Of a stretch of DNA of 64,000 nt, positions 50,396 through 58,038 are shown piece after piece (position 1 is the stretch's first letter; every line of letters starts with the position of its first letter). Position numbers and translations under genes: made by a program. Source of the DNA: Modestobacter versicolor (GTDB taxonomy: Bacteria; Actinomycetota; Actinomycetes; Mycobacteriales; Geodermatophilaceae); NCBI RefSeq assembly GCF_014195485.1, contig NZ_JACIBU010000001.1, forward strand, positions 744,001 through 808,000. The letters run 5' to 3'. A model generated the notes under the pieces. That model searched no databases. It worked only from the letters and a program-made list of their open reading frames with translations, and was not told the origin of the DNA.

Positions 50396-51232
50396 ATGAC
50401 CCGCAGCACGGCAGAACGAGCGCCCGCCCCGGTGGCGGCCGATGCCGCCCCCCGCCCGCAGCTCCAGGTGAGCGGGGTGAACAAGACCTACCAGGCCCGC
50501 CGGGGTGAGGTGCACGCCCTCAGCGACGTGAACCTGACCATCGGGCGGGGGGAGTTCATCTCCCTGGTCGGCCGGTCGGGGTGTGGGAAGACGACGTTGC
50601 TGCGGATCCTGGCCGGGCTGCTGCCGCCCACCTCGGGGGTGGTGGAGGCCGACGGGGAGAGCATCTGGCGCAACGGCAAGCGCAACGACGAGGCGTTCAA
50701 GCAGTTCGGGTTGGTGTTCCAGGACGCCAACCTGTTCCCCTGGTACACCGTGGCGGAGAACGTGTCGCTGCCGCTGAAGCTGCGCGGGATGGGCAAGAAG
50801 GCCCGCCTGGCGCGGGCGGGGGAGCTGTGCGAGCTGGTCGGGCTGCCCGGCTTCGAGAACGCCTACCCCCGGGAGCTGTCCGGTGGGATGCGGCAGCGGG
50901 CGGCGATCGCCCGCGCGCTGTCCTACGACCCGACCATCCTGCTGATGGACGAGCCCTTCGGCGCCCTGGACGCCCTCACCCGGGACAAGATGAACCTGGA
51001 GCTGCAGAACATCCACGCCCAGGCCGGGGCCACCGTGGTGTTCGTGACCCACTCCATCCCCGAGGCGGTGTTCCTGGCCGACCGGGTCGTGCTGCTCACC
51101 CCCCGACCGGGCCGGATCCGGTCGGTCACCCCCGTCTCGCTGGCCCGCCCCCGCTCGCTGGTCACCGAGACCAGCCAGGAGTTCCAAGACGTCGTCCGGG
51201 TGCTGCGCAGCGAGCTGGACGAGGAGGACTGA
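50396..51232 (+). CDS. ABC transporter ATP-binding protein, NitT/TauT type
   Basis: 278 aa. Walker A GRSGCGKTT near residue 59, Q-loop FGLVFQDANLFPWYTVAENV, signature LSGGMRQRAAIARALSYDP, Walker B ILLMDEPFGALDALTR, H-loop VTHSIPEA. The FPW after the Q-loop and GALDALTR are typical of nitrate/sulfonate/taurine importers. First gene of the selenoprotein operon; its stop overlaps the permease start by one base. No substrate-binding protein gene is present nearby. Confidence 0.92.
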   Translation: MTRSTAERAPAPVAADAAPRPQLQVSGVNKTYQARRGEVHALSDVNLTIGRGEFISLVGRSGCGKTTLLRILAGLLPPTSGVVEADGESIWRNGKRNDEAFKQFGLVFQDANLFPWYTVAENVSLPLKLRGMGKKARLARAGELCELVGLPGFENAYPRELSGGMRQRAAIARALSYDPTILLMDEPFGALDALTRDKMNLELQNIHAQAGATVVFVTHSIPEAVFLADRVVLLTPRPGRIRSVTPVSLARPRSLVTETSQEFQDVVRVLRSELDEED

Positions 51233-52104
51233 TGACCACCACCAGCAACCACCCGATCAGCGAAGACGCCACCCCCGCCAGCGCCACCGATGGTGGCGCG
51301 CGCAGGTCGGGGTTGTTCGGGGACCGGGAACGGCTGATGAAGGTGCTGCCCTGGATCTCCAGCCCCATCCTGCTGCTCCTACTGCTGGGCAGCTGGCAGT
51401 TCGCCGTCTCGGTGGTCGGGGTCTCGGAGTTCATCCTCCCCGCCCCCTCTGCCGTCTGGGACTCCCTGGTCACCCTGCTGTCCGGGTCGGCGGTCTACCA
51501 CGACATCTGGATCACCCTCACCGAGGTCCTCATCGGCTTCGCCGTGGCACTCATCGCCGGGGTCGCGATCGGCGCGGTGCTGGGCCGGGTCGTCTGGCTC
51601 GAGCGCGCCGTGCAGCCGGCGATGGTCGCCTTCCAGGTCGTGCCCAAGGTCGCGTTCATCCCGATCTTCGTGATCTGGTTCGGCTTCGGCACCACCTCCA
51701 AGATCATCATGGCGGCGATCCTGGCGTTCTTCCCGATCATGCTCAACGTGATGCTCGGGGTCCGCTCGGTCGACCGCGGTCACCGCGACGTCATGCGCGG
51801 GCTGGGTGCGACCCGCTGGGCCACCTTCCGCAACCTGGAACTGCCCTCCACGCTGCCCTACGTGTTCGCCGGCGCCGAGGTCGCCATCGTCTTCGCCGTC
51901 ATCGGCGCCATCGTCGGGGAGTACCTCGGTGGCAGCGAAGGCCTCGGCCACCTCGTCGTCTCCAGCCTCAACGCACTCGATGCACCCCAGCTGTTCGCCG
52001 TGATCATCCTGCTCGCCCTGATGGGCTCCCTGCTGTATCTCGCCGTCACCACCACCAAACGCCTGGTCATCCCCTGGCACGACTCCGTCGCAGGACAGCA
52101 GTGA
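51232..52104 (+). CDS. ABC transporter permease, NitT/TauT type
   Basis: 290 aa, six membrane segments from about residue 40. The SsuC/TauC-like EAA region is HRDVMRGLGATRWATFRNLELPSTLPYVFAGAEVAIVFAVIGAIVGEYLG; VPKVAFIPIFVIWFGFGTTSKI is equally characteristic. It forms the importer channel with the ATPase encoded upstream. The receptor must be encoded elsewhere or be replaced by another protein. Confidence 0.92.
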   Translation: MTTTSNHPISEDATPASATDGGARRSGLFGDRERLMKVLPWISSPILLLLLLGSWQFAVSVVGVSEFILPAPSAVWDSLVTLLSGSAVYHDIWITLTEVLIGFAVALIAGVAIGAVLGRVVWLERAVQPAMVAFQVVPKVAFIPIFVIWFGFGTTSKIIMAAILAFFPIMLNVMLGVRSVDRGHRDVMRGLGATRWATFRNLELPSTLPYVFAGAEVAIVFAVIGAIVGEYLGGSEGLGHLVVSSLNALDAPQLFAVIILLALMGSLLYLAVTTTKRLVIPWHDSVAGQQ

Positions 52105-53207
52105 GCGTCGAGGCGGCAGCCGGCAGCGAGGTGGACGTCGACATCGACGACGTCCGCCGGGCGCTGGAGCACTACGCGAGCAAGGGCTGGAGTGACGGCC
52201 TGCCGGTGATGCCGGTGACCGAGAGCTACCTGGCCGAGTTCCTGGCCACCACCGACCGCGCGCCGTCGGACGTGGTCTTCGAGATGCCGCACCTCAACCG
52301 CACCTGCACGGTGCGCGCGGCGGCGATCAACGCCGGGCTGGCCGGCTGCCTGCCGGAGTACTTCCCGGTGGTGCTGGCCGCCTGGGAGGCGCTCACCCTG
52401 GACGGCTACGCGACCCGTGGCATCTGGCAGAGCACCACCGGCACCGCACCGCTGCTGATCGTCAACGGCCCGGTGCGCGAGCGGATCGGGCTGAACAGCC
52501 GGGGCAACGTGTTCGGCTCCGGCTTCCGGGCCAACGCCACCATCGGCCGGGCCATCCGGCTCACCGCCATCAACGTCTTCGGGCTGCGGCCGCACGAGCT
52601 GGACCAGGCGACCCAGGGCACGCCGGCGAAGTACACCGCCTGCATCGCCGAGAACGAGGAGCAGAGCCCCTGGCCGGCGCTGCACGTCGAGCACGGGATG
52701 AGCGCGGCCGACAGCGCGGTCACCGGCATGGTCGTCCGCTCGGTGCTGCACATCGAGGCCCGGCACACCGTCGTCCCCGAGCAGCTCGCGCTGGACCTGG
52801 CCGGCTCGCTGGCCCGCACCGGCGCGCTGATCCACGAGACCATCAGCGGCTGCCTGGTGCTCGGCCCCGAGCACGCCGAGCTGTTCGCCCGGGCCGGCTG
52901 GAGCAAGACCGACGTCCGGCAGGCGGTGTACGAGCGGGCCTGGAACAGCCGGGAGGCGCTGGCCGCCGTCGGCAAGGACGCGGTCTCCCGCAGCACCCGC
53001 TGGCGGGTGCCGGCCGACCACCCCGACGCCGTCCCCGACCGGGCGTCGGAGGCCGGCGGCGACCGGGTCGAGGTGCTGAACTCGCCCGAGGCCCTGCTCG
53101 TCGTGGTCGCCGGTGCCAACAACTCCGGCGTCTCCGCCGTCATCGAGACCTTCGGCCCGCGCGGCGGTGCACCGTCGACCGCCCGGGTGGCCGAGCCCCG
53201 CCCATGA
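52101..53207 (+). CDS. Conserved protein of unknown function in the selenoprotein operon
   Basis: 368 aa, no signal peptide or membrane segments. I do not recognise a named domain. Conserved-looking blocks include GWSDGLPVMPVTESYL (residues 29-44), LNRTCTVRAAAINAGLAGCLPEYFPVVLAAWEAL, LLIVNGPVRERIGLNSRGNVFGSGFRANATIGRAIRLTAINVFG, KYTACIAENEEQSPW and the C-terminal LLVVVAGANNSGV. Proteins with this GWSDGLPV/NGP.R..G.NS pattern are, to my recollection, found beside UGSC-motif proteins. Two Cys lie in the TCTV and GCLPEYFP segments. It may be a catalytic partner of the selenoprotein; that is inference. GTG start overlaps the permease stop. Confidence 0.8.
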   Translation: MSVEAAAGSEVDVDIDDVRRALEHYASKGWSDGLPVMPVTESYLAEFLATTDRAPSDVVFEMPHLNRTCTVRAAAINAGLAGCLPEYFPVVLAAWEALTLDGYATRGIWQSTTGTAPLLIVNGPVRERIGLNSRGNVFGSGFRANATIGRAIRLTAINVFGLRPHELDQATQGTPAKYTACIAENEEQSPWPALHVEHGMSAADSAVTGMVVRSVLHIEARHTVVPEQLALDLAGSLARTGALIHETISGCLVLGPEHAELFARAGWSKTDVRQAVYERAWNSREALAAVGKDAVSRSTRWRVPADHPDAVPDRASEAGGDRVEVLNSPEALLVVVAGANNSGVSAVIETFGPRGGAPSTARVAEPRP

Positions 53208-53235: not shown

Positions 53236-53517
53236 ATGAGCACCGTGGACACCACCGGGCAGCAGACCCCGGCCGGCGACGACCAGCAGGTCGACGAGGC
53301 GCTGCAGGGGCTGCGCGACGTCCTGGCCGCCGACGGGTACGTGCTGGGCTGGTCCCGGCAGGGCGACGCCGAGCTGGTCGTGCAGGTCGCCGCGGGTGAG
53401 GGCGCCTGCGAGGACTGCCTGGTCCCGGAGACGGTGATGCACGCGATCCTCACCGACGCGCTCACCTCGACCCCGTACTCGGTCGCCCGGGTCGAGCTGC
53501 CGGCCGGAGCCAAGTGA
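53236..53517 (+). CDS. Small CxxC protein (NifU-C-terminal-like size and pattern)
   Basis: 93 aa from ATG 53236. After a polar N-terminus come two short strands and GACEDCLVPETVMHAILTDAL, a CxxC at the start of a helix, as in small redox or Fe-S carrier domains. No family is certain. Overlapped by the FAD oxidoreductase start (GTGA). A thiol pair next to an FAD enzyme, a probable Fe-S dehydratase and a selenoprotein suggests electron or metal transfer among them, which is speculative. Confidence 0.7.
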   Translation: MSTVDTTGQQTPAGDDQQVDEALQGLRDVLAADGYVLGWSRQGDAELVVQVAAGEGACEDCLVPETVMHAILTDALTSTPYSVARVELPAGAK

Positions 53518-54878
53518 CGGCGGTCCGCCCGGGCGCTGCGACGCTCGTCGAACCCAGCCGGGAGATCCCGGTCCACGGCGAGTTCGACGTCGTGGTCATC
53601 GGCGGCGGCCCGGCCGGGCTGATGGCGGCCACCGCGGCCGCCCGGCAGGGCCGCTCGACGCTGCTGGTGGAGCGCTACGGCTTCCTCGGGGGCGCCGGCA
53701 CCGCCGGCGGGCTGAGCACCTTCTGCGGGCTGCACGCCAAGGTGCACGGCGAGCACGTCCAGGTGGTGCACGGGCTGGCCGACGAGCTGCTCGAGCGGCT
53801 GGCCAAGCTCGACGGGCTCTCGGCCCCGCACCTGACGATCAACGACGGCATCCTGGCCCAGGCCTTCGACATCTCCAGCTACAAGCTGGCCGCCGACGAG
53901 CTGGTCACCGGTGCCGGGGCCGGGCTGCTCTTCCACGCCATGGCCGTGGCGGTGGTGATGACCGACGAGGCCACCATCGACGCGGTGGTCATCGAGTCCA
54001 AGTCCGGCCGGGCCGCCGTCCGCGGTCGGGTGTTCATCGACGCCTCCGGGGACGCCGACGTCGCCGCCTGGGCCGGCGTCCCGTTCGAGACCTCGCCGCA
54101 CCTGCTCTTCCCGTCGATGATGTTCCGGATCAACGGGGTCGACGTGGCAGCGGCGGGAGAGCGGCCCTGGCGCACCGTCGAGCGGCTGATGGACGAGGCC
54201 GAGCAGGCCGGCACCCACCGCTTCCCGCGGAAGAAGCCGATCGTCCGGCCGCAGCGCAACCCGCTGGAGTGGCGGGCCAACCTGACCCAGCTGAGCAACG
54301 CCGACGGCAGCGCGATCGACGGCACCGACGTCGAGCAGCTGACCCGCGGCGAGCTGCAGGGCCGCCAGCAGGTGTTCGACGCCTTCGCCTTCATCCGCGA
54401 CCGCACCCCGGGCTTCGGCAGCTCCTACATCGTCGACATCGCCCCGCAGGTCGGCATCCGGGAGACCCGCCGGGTGGTCGGCGACCACGTGCTCACCGAG
54501 GACGACGTGCTGGACTGCGTGGACTTCCCCGACACCATCGGGGTCAACGGCTGGCCGGTCGAGGCGCACGTCGCCGGCACCGTCGAGTTCCGCTGGCAGC
54601 GCGGGGAGGACTCCCGCGGGTTCAACCAGCTGCCCTACCGGATGCTGCTGCCGCAGCGCGTGGACAACCTGCTCGTCGTCGGCCGGTGCGCCTCGATGAC
54701 GCAGATGGGCCAGTCCTCGGCGCGGGTCACCGGCCCGTGCTTCGCCATGGGCCAGGCCGCCGGTACCGCGGCCGCCCTCGCGCTGGACGACGGCAGCACG
54801 CTGCGCGGTGTCGACGTGGGCCGGCTCCAGCAGCGGCTGCGCGGCGACGGCGCCTTCCTCGGGGACGAGCCGGCGTGA
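53514..54878 (+). CDS. FAD-dependent oxidoreductase (FAD_oxidored family)
   Basis: 454 aa. Rossmann motif DVVVIGGGPAGLMAATAAARQG at residues 25-46, then ERYGFLGGAGTAGGLSTFCGL and GRVFIDASGDADVAAWAGVPFE, and the C-terminal NLLVVGRCASMTQMGQSSARVTGPCFAMGQAAGTAAAL. This is the PF12831-type flavoprotein architecture, often paired with other enzymes in sugar-acid and thiol redox loci. The Cys in FCGL and RCAS could be redox active. Overlaps neighbours at both ends by four bases. Confidence 0.88.
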   Translation: MTAVRPGAATLVEPSREIPVHGEFDVVVIGGGPAGLMAATAAARQGRSTLLVERYGFLGGAGTAGGLSTFCGLHAKVHGEHVQVVHGLADELLERLAKLDGLSAPHLTINDGILAQAFDISSYKLAADELVTGAGAGLLFHAMAVAVVMTDEATIDAVVIESKSGRAAVRGRVFIDASGDADVAAWAGVPFETSPHLLFPSMMFRINGVDVAAAGERPWRTVERLMDEAEQAGTHRFPRKKPIVRPQRNPLEWRANLTQLSNADGSAIDGTDVEQLTRGELQGRQQVFDAFAFIRDRTPGFGSSYIVDIAPQVGIRETRRVVGDHVLTEDDVLDCVDFPDTIGVNGWPVEAHVAGTVEFRWQRGEDSRGFNQLPYRMLLPQRVDNLLVVGRCASMTQMGQSSARVTGPCFAMGQAAGTAAALALDDGSTLRGVDVGRLQQRLRGDGAFLGDEPA

Positions 54879-56545
54879 GGGAGCTGCGGAGCAACTTCGA
54901 GCCCGGCACCACCCGCTGGGCGATGCGGCGGGCGCAGTGGACGGCGCTGGGCATCCCCGAGGCGGACATGGAGAAGCCCAAGATCGCCATCGTCAACAGC
55001 TCGTCGGGGCTGGCCAGCTGCTTCAGCCACCTCGACGGCATCGTCGGCCCGTTGAAGGAGGCCGTCCGGGCGGCCGGCGGGGTGCCCTTCGAGGTGCGGA
55101 CGGCGGCGCCCAGCGACGCGATCACCAGCGCCGGCCGGGCCGGGCAGTACATCCTGCCCACCCGCGACCTGGTGGCCAGCGACATCGAGGTGGCCGTCGA
55201 GGGGGCGCTGCTGGACGGCATGGTCACCCTCGCCTCCTGCGACAAGACCACCCCCGCCCAGCTGATGGCCGCCGCCCGGCTGGACATCCCGACGATCGTG
55301 GTCGGCTGCGGCTACCAGCCCTCGGGGCTGTTCCGCGGTGAGCACGTCGACTTCGAGGACGTCTTCCTCTACGCCGGGCACGTGGCCACCGGGAAGATGA
55401 CGGTCGAGGACCTCGCCGAGATGGCGAGCAACGCCGTCACGGGCCCGGGCGTCTGCGCCGGGATGGGCACCGCCAACTCCATGCACATCGCCACCGAGGC
55501 GCTGGGCATGGCGCTGCCGGGCAGCACCCCGGTGCTCGCGAACAGCCCGCGGATGTGGGACGCGGTGCGGGCAGCCGGTGCCCGGATCGTCGAGATGGTC
55601 GACGAGGACCTGCGCCCGCGCACCGTGCTCACCCCGGGTGCCTTCCGCAACGCGGTCGCCGCTGTGCTCGCCGTCAGCGGCTCGGTCAACTGCGTGAAGC
55701 ACCTGCAGGCGGTGGCCGTCGAGGCCGGCTGCGACGTCGACGTGATCGCGCTGTTCGAGGAGCTCGCCGGGCAGGTGCCGCTGCTGTCGGCGGTCAAGCC
55801 CAACGGCGACCGGCAGATCGACGAGTTCGAGGCCGCGGGCGGGGCGCAGGCGCTGCTGCACCAGCTGCGGCCCTTCCTGGACCTGGACCAGCTGACCGTG
55901 TCCGGCGCGACGCAGCGGGAGGTGCTCGGCGGGGTCACCGTCGCCGACCCCGACGTCATCCGCCCGGTCGGGGACCCGCTGGCCCGCCACCCCGGGGTGA
56001 TGGTCGTCCGCGGGTCGCTCGCCCCGGACGGCGCGCTGGTCAAGCGCACCGTCGCCGACGACGGCATCAAGCAGTTCAGCGGCCCGGCCCGGGTGTTCCG
56101 CTCCCGCGAGGAGGGGCTCGCCGCGATCCGCGGCGGCGAGGTGCGGGCCGGCCAGGTGCTGGTGCTCAGCGGGCTGGGCCTGCGCGGCGCCCCGGGGATG
56201 GGCTTCACCTCGGCGTTCATCTTCGCCCTGGACGGCGCCGGCCTCGGCGACGAGGTGGTGGTGGTGACCGACGGGCAGATGTCCGGCCTGGTCAACAAGG
56301 GCCTGGTGGTGGCCGAGGTCGCGCCGGAAGCGGCGCTCGGCGGCCCGCTGGCGCTGGTCGAGGACGGCGACGTCATCAGCGTCGACGTCGAGGCCCGCAC
56401 GGTCGACCTGGACGTCGACCCGGCCGTGCTCGAGGAACGGCGGGGCCGCCTGGCGCCGCCGGAGACGCCCAGCGGCTGCGGCTGGCTGTCGGTGTACGCC
56501 CGGTCGGTCCAGCCGGTGTCCCGCGGCGCCACGCTCGGCGCCTGA
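54875..56545 (+). CDS. Dihydroxy-acid/sugar-acid dehydratase (IlvD/Edd family)
   Basis: 556 aa, the usual family length. Three Cys align with the Fe-S cluster ligands: C49 (LASCFSH), C122 (LASCDKTTPAQ) and C194 (GVCAGMGTANSM). The C-terminal half has VVVTDGQMSG and GLVVAEVAPEAALGGPLALVEDGD. It removes water from a 2,3-dihydroxy acid to give a 2-keto acid. Being outside any branched-chain biosynthesis context, it is more likely a catabolic sugar-acid enzyme. Coupled to the FAD gene by GTGA and followed after 24 bp by the selenoprotein gene. Confidence 0.92.
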   Translation: MRELRSNFEPGTTRWAMRRAQWTALGIPEADMEKPKIAIVNSSSGLASCFSHLDGIVGPLKEAVRAAGGVPFEVRTAAPSDAITSAGRAGQYILPTRDLVASDIEVAVEGALLDGMVTLASCDKTTPAQLMAAARLDIPTIVVGCGYQPSGLFRGEHVDFEDVFLYAGHVATGKMTVEDLAEMASNAVTGPGVCAGMGTANSMHIATEALGMALPGSTPVLANSPRMWDAVRAAGARIVEMVDEDLRPRTVLTPGAFRNAVAAVLAVSGSVNCVKHLQAVAVEAGCDVDVIALFEELAGQVPLLSAVKPNGDRQIDEFEAAGGAQALLHQLRPFLDLDQLTVSGATQREVLGGVTVADPDVIRPVGDPLARHPGVMVVRGSLAPDGALVKRTVADDGIKQFSGPARVFRSREEGLAAIRGGEVRAGQVLVLSGLGLRGAPGMGFTSAFIFALDGAGLGDEVVVVTDGQMSGLVNKGLVVAEVAPEAALGGPLALVEDGDVISVDVEARTVDLDVDPAVLEERRGRLAPPETPSGCGWLSVYARSVQPVSRGATLGA

Positions 56546-56569
56546 CCGACCGATGAGGAGGAGACAGAC

Positions 56570-57103
56570 GTGACCCGCGAAGTCCTGCTCGACCCGACCG
56601 GCGACGGCGACGGTGCCGGCGACACCCGGCTGGCGCCGCGGCTGCGCAGCCTGAAGGGGGCGCGGATCGGCCTGCTGGACAACACCAAGCCGAACGCCTC
56701 GGTGGTGCTCGCCGAGGTGGCCCGCCAGCTGCGCCGCGACTTCGACGCCGGCGAGGTGACCACCTACGTCAAGGGCTACTTCGGCACCCCGGTGGAGGAG
56801 AGCCAGATTCAGCAGATCCTCAAGAACTGCGACTTCGTCGTGGCCGGGATCGGCGATTAGGGCTCCTGCAGCGCGGCCAGTGTGGCCGACGGAGTCCTGC
56901 TGGAGCGGGCCGGTGTGCCCGCCGTCAGCATCTGCACCGACGCGTTCCGGGTCCCTGGCGAGGCGATGGCCAAGGCCTACGGGTTCCCCGGCTACCGGTT
57001 CCTGGTGGTCCCGCACCCGCTCGCCAGCCTGGACCAGCAGCAGATCAGCGAGCGGGTCTCCACCGCGCTCGCCGAGCTGGTGGGCATCGTCGTCAGCGGC
57101 TGA
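56570..57103 (+). CDS. UGSC-motif selenoprotein with selenocysteine encoded by UAG
   Basis: 177 aa read through one in-frame UAG (56858-56860, codon 97). The N-terminal half ends VVAGIGD; then come [UAG]-GSC and SAASVADGVLLERAGVPAVSICTDAF, so the stop falls exactly on the U of the UGSC motif. The frame is otherwise open to a UGA at 57103, and similarity to the family runs across the codon. GAGGAG precedes the GTG start. UGSC proteins normally have UGA-coded Sec or Cys here. UAG-decoded selenocysteine has been reported for Geodermatophilus and Blastococcus, consistent with this genome. U97 and C100 form a UxxC redox pair. The function is unknown; a simple nonsense mutation is the alternative. 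The SelA/B/D machinery and tRNA-Sec are not in this window. Confidence 0.88.
56861..56897 (+). promoter_or_regulatory. SECIS-like hairpin directly after the UAG codon
   Basis: GGCTCC (56861-56866) can pair with GGAGTCC (56891-56897, one bulged T). An upper stem GGCC/GGCC (56875-56878, 56884-56887) carries loop AGTGT, which holds the G-U expected in a bacterial SECIS loop. The loop begins 18 nt after the codon, within the known spacing range. GC-rich coding sequence forms hairpins easily, so the prediction is moderate. Confidence 0.5.
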
Positions 57104-57213
57104 GCCGACGGTGGGGGTGGGGTCGCCCGGGAGGGCGGCCCCACCTCGGCGGCACCGGCCGGCCGGCGGTCGTGGCACACTCCGGGCCCGCGCACGACCA
57201 CCGGGCCGACGAG

Positions 57214-58038
57214 GTGACTGACACGGAGCAGGACGAGTCCCTGGAGCGGGGCGACCACTACGCCAAGACCTTCGCCCGGGGCCTGGAGACGATCCGGGCG
57301 TTCAGCCCCGAGGAGCCCGAGCTCTCGGTGAGCGACGTCGCCCGCAAGACCGGCATGCCGCGGGCCGCCGCCCGCCGCTTCCTGCTCACCCTGCTCGACC
57401 TCGGCTACGTCGGGGTCACCGCCGAGCGCCGGTTCTTCCTGCGCCCCGCCGTGCTCGAGCTGGGCTTCACCTACCTGTCGACGCTGACGCTGCCGCAGCT
57501 GGCCCGGCCGCGGCTGGTCGAGCTGACCGCCGAGCTGGGGGAGACCACCAGCCTCGGCGTCCGGGACGGCGACGACATCGTCTACGTCGCCCACGTCCCG
57601 GTGCGCCGCACGTTCAGCGCCGGCATCACGGTCGGCACCCGGGGCCCGGCGTACCTCAGCTCCCACGGACGGGTGCTCCTCGGCGCGCTGCCGCCGGCCG
57701 AGCTCGAGGCCTACCTGCAGCGGGTCCGGCTGGAGCGGCGCACCACGCACACCGTGCCCGACCGCGAGGCGCTGCGGCAGCGCATCGAGGAGGGCCGCGC
57801 CCAGGGCTGGGTCGCCGTCGACGAGGAGCTGGAGGACGGCGTCACCTCCCTCGCGGTGCCGGTGCACGGACCGGACGGCGACGTCGTCGCCTCGCTCAAC
57901 CTCGCGAGCCACAGCAACCGCGAGTCCGTCGGCGCCCGGCGGCCGCAGACCATCGCCGCCCTCCAGCGGACCGCGGCCGCGCTCACCCGGGAGCTGCGGC
58001 TGCTGGGCGGGACCACCGACACCCGCAACCGGCTCTGA
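57214..58038 (+). CDS. IclR-family transcriptional regulator
   Basis: 274 aa from GTG 57214 (an upstream GTG at 57172 is possible). HTH: AKTFARGLETIRAFSPEEPELSVSDVARKTGMPRAAARRFLLTLLDLGYV. The C-terminal effector domain includes GDDIVYVAHVPVRRTFSAGITVGTRGPAYLSSHGRVLLGALPPAELEAYL. It is of the PcaU/PobR branch and is separated by 110 bp from the selenoprotein gene. The PcaU-like sites at 50308-50342 are its likely target, so the effector is probably the imported substrate or an intermediate. Confidence 0.92.
   Translation: MTDTEQDESLERGDHYAKTFARGLETIRAFSPEEPELSVSDVARKTGMPRAAARRFLLTLLDLGYVGVTAERRFFLRPAVLELGFTYLSTLTLPQLARPRLVELTAELGETTSLGVRDGDDIVYVAHVPVRRTFSAGITVGTRGPAYLSSHGRVLLGALPPAELEAYLQRVRLERRTTHTVPDREALRQRIEEGRAQGWVAVDEELEDGVTSLAVPVHGPDGDVVASLNLASHSNRESVGARRPQTIAALQRTAAALTRELRLLGGTTDTRNRL

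Follow-up and report, generated by a model that had tools for sequence, protein, structure and literature searches.

UAG as a predicted selenocysteine codon in a UGSC-family gene of Modestobacter versicolor, and the distribution of UAG and UGA codons in Geodermatophilaceae

In 2016, Mukai et al. (Angew Chem) reportedly showed by labelling or mass spectrometry that UAG is read as selenocysteine (Sec) in Geodermatophilaceae. The available part of one later source describes a tRNA-Sec with the anticodon CUA in three Geodermatophilaceae genomes of its set, credits its reference 56 with UAG-containing formate dehydrogenases and UGSC-motif selenoproteins, and adds AhpC (PMC5330540); that UAG specifies Sec in Blastococcus is stated in the available part of another (PMC5133445). 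The initial annotation of the DNA studied here had referred to such reports from the family, and these two sources bear it out. UAG-encoded Sec, UGSC genes included, is already known for Geodermatophilaceae, and the gene described below is a further case.

The present system shares with that of Mukai et al., as far as the available text describes it, a CUA tRNA-Sec and UAG in formate dehydrogenase and UGSC-motif proteins. It differs in the genome, which is another one and belongs to the genus Modestobacter (g1), and in the counting of codons and anticodons over 112 genomes of the family and 397 of the order; GrdB/PrdB-type UAG genes and UCA-keeping genera of the same family are added. With the UGSC family (PF24696, NF041046; 'UGSC-containing' in PMC2398784) it has in common, going by the available part of that source, the UxxC motif, the profile and the fusion to a second conserved domain, whereas the Sec codon is here UAG. 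The fold also differs, the model obtained here being flavodoxin/Rossmann-like with profile kinship to GrdB, whereas a thioredoxin-like fold is supposed in the available part of PMC2398784. Selenoprotein B and PrdB (TIGR01917, NF040794, NF040795, TIGR04483, PF07355) carry Sec at the aligned place; however, UGSC comprises the Sec half only, its partner is without a family match and the window protein scores far below the cut-offs. Finally, UGA-Sec systems in other actinobacteria of the order likewise have a tRNA-Sec, a hairpin after the codon and orthologous UGSC genes, but differ in codon and anticodon.

The additions made here are the location of the switch boundary inside the family, the replacement of UGA by UAG in orthologues, the family-wide counts and the finding that one Geodermatophilus carries a tRNA-Sec of the UAG type and another of the UGA type. 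This is a clean natural case in which the codon of the 21st amino acid moves between stop codons with the tRNA anticodon moving along, and how such a switch happens becomes testable because UCA-keeping genera (g6–g8), UAG genera and a possible two-codon strain occur in one family.

The window gene and the selenocysteine machinery of its genome

The window is the whole stretch of DNA that was analysed, 64,000 nucleotides at C1:744001-808000 of a 4.59 Mb genome in two contigs. The gene of interest and its signals are as follows.

56570–57103, + strand: UGSC-family (seleno)protein gene, 177 codons with the UAG read through, 96 amino acids by the standard reading
56555–56563, + strand: ribosome-binding site GAGGAGGAG before GTG 56570, identified by eye
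56858–56860, + strand: in-frame UAG, predicted Sec codon, residue 97, the U of UGSC
56874–56888, + strand: predicted SECIS-type hairpin, stem CGGCCA/TGGCCG with a GTG loop, 13 nt after the UAG (alignment columns 17–31)
56879–56881, + strand: Ser codon AGT in the hairpin apex

The frame running from GTG 56570 to TGA 57101–57103 contains a single internal stop, TAG 56858–56860 at residue 97, as the initial annotation had stated in placing UAG as the sole break on the U of U-GSC. Its statement that family sequence resumes in frame after the stop also held: with TAG taken as U, the 177-residue product matches PF24696 (UGSC) at 210.6 bits over residues 6–174 (cut-off 25) and NCBIfam NF041046 ('UGSC family (seleno)protein') at 155.4 bits (cut-off 125). 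Standard annotation had been expected to give a truncated 96-residue protein or a pseudogene, and the standard reading does end at 96 residues. An alignment of homologues had been proposed to see whether residue 97 is U or C; in the U/C-x-x-C motif, column 97 is a stop or Cys and column 100 is Cys in all 33 UGSC rows. The view that UGA ends nearly all genes of the window agrees with its presence at the end of 36 of 39 open reading frames (at least 150 amino acids, with coding-like GC); UAG had been said to end four, of which three passed this filter and account for the remaining 3/39. When three more stretches of the genome are included, TGA ends 57 of 64 frames, TAG seven and TAA none. The initial annotation had suggested that this rarity may have favoured the move of Sec to UAG.

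A CUA-anticodon tRNA-Sec and selA, selB and selD had been named as the genes to look for, and all were found. The tRNA-Sec at C1:1687097-1687188 has the anticodon CTA and is the best of five RF01852 matches in the genome (64.3 bits, covering the whole length of the tRNA); the next match, at 48.1 bits, is a serine tRNA. The selA gene (406.2 bits) starts approximately 90 nt past this tRNA on the same strand, selB (280.2 bits, with a start chosen by the analyst) overlaps the end of selA, and selD (390.4 bits) lies approximately 8.5 kb from the tRNA-Sec locus; all three score above their curated cut-offs. Other candidate Sec genes are also present. A second UGSC gene has TAG at the same site (C1:91271), two further UGSC genes have Cys there (GDCGSCSA), and the gene for formate dehydrogenase alpha, whose pieces together score 937.5 bits, is interrupted by one TAG within NQARI-u-HSSTVPG; the hairpin that comes after it has the loop GGTCT.

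The hairpin after the window UAG is read as a predicted SECIS-type element. Among 26 Sec genes (20 UAG and six UGA, 19 distinct rows), columns 15–22 and 26–33 after the codon are paired in 96.1% of cells, against 86.1% on shuffling, and none of 500 shuffles reached the observed value; slid versions of the columns are paired in 12.5–55.9%. Three pairs change on both sides, with the compensated pairs resting on three rows, and 46 of 500 shuffles reach two of five covariation measures (pairs with a double change and pair types). The folding energy of the hairpin is unremarkable, with mean z values of −0.64 for 20 UAG, −0.83 for six UGA and −0.28 for 20 Cys genes. The apex codon AGT is present in 72/72 UAG genes, in 11 of 14 genes with UGA on site (three lack it) and in none of 25 Cys rows (25 of the 42 stopless matches), counts in which related sequences enter many times; in 12 genes of the window, AGT accounts for two of the 210 Ser codons, a thirteenth gene having been left out owing to a wrong frame.

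Downstream of the UAG, dN/dS ranges from about 0.05 to 0.78 in 19 chosen pairs of UAG genes, with dN below dS in every pair, and is 0.50 between the window gene and its nearest UAG orthologue. Three comparisons that involved the window gene each gave a higher amino-acid identity past the codon than ahead of it. The outcome named beforehand as refuting a Sec codon, namely a sense codon other than Cys at this place together with decay of the 3' half, was not seen in these pairs or relatives. A protein database search returned 734 homologues; the 120 matches listed carry Cys at the site without exception, and U appears in none of them, as is expected if annotation drops or cuts Sec forms. Where annotation allows for Sec at UGA alone, UAG-Sec genes would be overlooked or cut short.

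The reading to which a probability of about 0.94 is given is that UAG 56858–56860 is read as Sec by the CUA-anticodon tRNA-Sec encoded beside selA and selB, yielding a predicted 177-residue UGSC selenoprotein. SelA and SelD would make Sec on this tRNA and SelB would deliver it to the ribosome at the hairpin in competition with release factor 1 (RF1), such that a UAG that is not followed by a hairpin of this kind would still end a protein.

UAG and UGA across the family and the order

The tRNA-Sec search covered 112 genomes of the family, and anticodons were read with ARAGORN on 111 loci, taking the best match per genome where it reached at least about 52 bits. A CTA tRNA-Sec was found in 101 of the 112 genomes (genera g1–g5 and g9–g12), one of which (G059) has both CTA and TCA, and TCA alone was found in seven, all drafts (genera g6, g7 and g8). 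No tRNA-Sec match of at least 60 bits was present in G068, G072, G098 and G099 (72–82% complete), the one read in G072 being a serine tRNA. The CUA tRNA-Sec of the window's genome differs from the UCA tRNA-Sec of the family mainly in the anticodon arm.

In the same 112 genomes, 95 UGSC matches were found, spread over 54 genomes. A single TAG interrupts 72 of them (in 48 genomes), 23 have no stop, and an internal TGA occurs in none of the 95. Each of the 72 was read, and in 72/72 the TAG falls exactly on the U of UGSC, so its position is not due to chance. The order sample of 397 genomes, some of them from the family, was scored for at most eight UGSC candidates per genome. Outside the family it gave 34 matches in 26 genomes, 15 with TGA and 19 without a stop; TAG was found inside none of the 34. 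The TGA lies on the U in 14 of the 15, the off-site exception being a weak match (28.6 bits) in G221. Ten genomes have an on-site TGA, and nine of these have a TCA tRNA-Sec; the exception is G268 (57% complete), where the best match that was read is a serine tRNA. In one genome outside the family (G140:C9; L186, L207), a UCA tRNA-Sec lies approximately 150 nt downstream of a UGA UGSC gene on the same strand.

As a second test family, PF07355 (GrdB/PrdB-type selenoprotein B) was sought in the same 397-genome sample, giving 12 matches in 11 genomes, ten with a stop at the Sec site and two without a stop. The stop is TAG in 5/5 genes inside the family and TGA in 5/5 outside. The former are

L243, L244, L246, L247 and L250: genes of the GrdB/PrdB type from four genomes of the family, each with UAG as the codon at the Sec site

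In the stretch after the codon, L244 (TAG-PVCHGSVGLVARALEAAGIPT) and L245 (TGA-PVCHESVGLVARALEAAGIAT) differ at two of 21 residues. G157, the sole GrdB/PrdB genome outside the family that was checked for tRNA, has a TCA tRNA-Sec.

A tRNA pattern was also scanned against the genome_contigs collection of 84,980 species genomes and found 91 stretches, of which 80 were listed. All 80 have the anticodon arm CGCGGCCTCTAAAGCCG, most letters of which the pattern itself demands, and CUA tRNA-Secs with other anticodon arms would escape it. Geodermatophilaceae names (Modestobacter, Geodermatophilus, Blastococcus, Klenkia, Goekera, Trujillonella or the family name) are attached to 77 of the 80, and two more, 'Bacillus sp. 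AZ43' and 'Frankiales bacterium RYN_115', are probably the family members G030 and G061. The last of the 80 is a CUA tRNA-Sec on a 4.8 kb contig of a MAG named Jatrophihabitans (L271), together with selA-like and selD-like frames named by eye; the contig is mis-binned or transferred, or it reflects a wider spread of this tRNA.

Other readings of the window UAG were weighed against these data. A nonsense mutation in a decaying pseudogene would account for a standard reading that ends at 96 amino acids, and the two Cys paralogues in the genome could render the UAG gene dispensable. However, 48 genomes share this codon at this site, in 72 genes altogether, the sequence that follows it has dN below dS in all 19 pairs, the frame is intact with a ribosome-binding site and a partly kept gene neighbourhood, and a matching CUA tRNA-Sec exists in the genome; decay is thus considered very improbable. 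Even less credence is given to an amber-reading tRNA that would insert pyrrolysine or some other amino acid at the UAG. ARAGORN does label the CTA tRNA 'tRNA-Pyl', as the anticodon alone would give, but this tRNA matches the tRNA-Sec model over its whole length at 64.3 bits, it directly precedes selA and selB and it departs from the UCA tRNA-Sec of the family mainly in the anticodon arm. Furthermore, the site is Cys or a stop, and never Lys, in the loci and in the proteins among the matches listed.

Partial reading of the UAG, giving the 96-residue protein and some selenoprotein in a ratio set by selenium supply and RF1, would be a variant compatible with the best explanation. RF1 must act here because UAG ends other genes in this genome, and bacterial UGA-Sec recoding competes with RF2 according to the available part of PMC8124441. 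On the other hand, nothing was found to suggest that the 96-residue fragment has a use, and the sequence after the codon is conserved as much as that before it in the three comparisons. This variant is regarded as rather unlikely.

Direction of the codon switch

The UGSC tree contains 60 rows, 59 of which are different (L058 and L347 being one gene). In the IEALAD-UGSC subfamily, the 13 UAG rows group together (100/92) within a set of six UGA rows that come from outside the family, and the sister of this UAG clade is a UGA row (100/97). Such nesting is most simply explained by a replacement of UGA with UAG in this subfamily. The window's own subfamily comprises eight UAG rows from seven genes, and the nearest other row is Cys; a UGA orthologue was not found in the 397-genome order sample. 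A direct gain of UAG from Cys is therefore possible for the window's subfamily.

Geodermatophilus sp. LHW52908 (G059) carries, in addition to its CUA tRNA-Sec, a second tRNA-Sec with a UCA anticodon (81.8 bits; G059:C17:1173-2157, L021/L238). Beside it lies an AhpD-like gene (TIGR01926, 112.6 bits) with an in-frame TGA (CFY-U), after which a hairpin, ACGCAG-AGTTT-CTGCGT, was identified by eye. The stretch has a low GC content (0.59–0.65) and adjoins a piece of an ISAs1 transposase. Going by these genes, the strain may read both codons, with contamination as the alternative. Among weak relatives (20–26 bits), an inner TAG occurs in three and an inner TGA in one.

A wider scenario is put forward tentatively, with the odds somewhat against it. 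A single change in the family would have exchanged UGA for UAG as the Sec codon of all the selenoprotein families that it keeps, and LHW52908 would since have regained UGA-Sec through a mobile island bearing the UCA tRNA-Sec and the AhpD-like UGA selenoprotein, thereby running two Sec codons side by side.

Kinship to selenoprotein B, the partner protein and the operon

In an NCBIfam scan, 18 of 33 UGSC members matched TIGR01917 (glycine reductase selenoprotein B) at E ≤ 10, the best at 1.5e-5, and other weak matches were to sarcosine GrdF (14/33), PrdB (14/33) and betaine GrdH (6/33). The match of the window protein to GrdB covers residues 45–124, around the Sec, and its score of 14.5 bits against a TIGR01917 cut-off of 602.2 places it below membership of selenoprotein B. 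A comparison in hhalign of the UGSC profile with a profile of nine GrdB-type proteins, two of which are truncated, gave 93.5% with an E value of 2.3e-7, and Sec was aligned on Sec. From the repeated weak matches and the profile alignment, UGSC looks like the Sec half of the selenoprotein B family standing alone. This kinship is not stated in the available parts of PMC2398784, PMC9312934, PMC13188914 and PMC5330540, and it and the partner protein are additions made here as far as the UGSC literature examined goes.

The surroundings of the window gene are as follows.

50396–51232, + strand: ABC transporter ATPase (nitrate/sulfonate/taurine type)
51232–52104, + strand: ABC transporter permease, start assigned by eye
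52101–53207, + strand: partner protein, 368 amino acids, no Pfam or NCBIfam match, 3.4 kb before the UGSC gene
53236–53517, + strand: protein of approximately 93 amino acids, no family match, with a homologue near UGSC genes in L347 and L020
53514–54878, + strand: FAD-dependent oxidoreductase (PF12831, 381 bits)
54875–56545, + strand: IlvD/EDD-family dehydratase, start assigned by eye
57172–58038, + strand: IclR-type regulator, nearest to the PcaR/PcaU/PobR group

In a motif search of 51 loci, 45 had a partner of approximately 360 amino acids no more than 1.5 kb from UGSC, and in four of the 45 the two are fused. In six orthologous UGSC stretches (L342–L347, 14–18 kb), the partner is kept in 6/6, the FAD oxidoreductase and the IclR regulator in 5/6 each and the dehydratase in 1/6; the ABC genes are found in none of the six. 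Going by the gene neighbourhood and the kinship to the selenoprotein B of glycine reductase, our guess is an operon for the catabolism of a small organic compound, with Sec cleaving a C–N or similar bond. The enzyme, a presumed distant relative of the Sec half of selenoprotein B, might then use Sec97 and Cys100 as its active site and might act together with the partner in the uptake and breakdown of such a compound.

Several further observations concern the partner. Both Cys-type UGSC genes of the window's genome lie in one cluster (L020), each followed by an overlapping partner gene. In L063–L066, a UAG UGSC gene and the partner are fused in one frame of more than 500 codons. A fusion of UGSC with 'Unknown_1' is reported in the available part of PMC2398784, and 'Unknown_1' may be the same partner as that of the 52101–53207 type. 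The structural model of the partner at 52101–53207 gave weak matches to cyclic amide hydrolases (barbiturase and cyanuric acid hydrolase).
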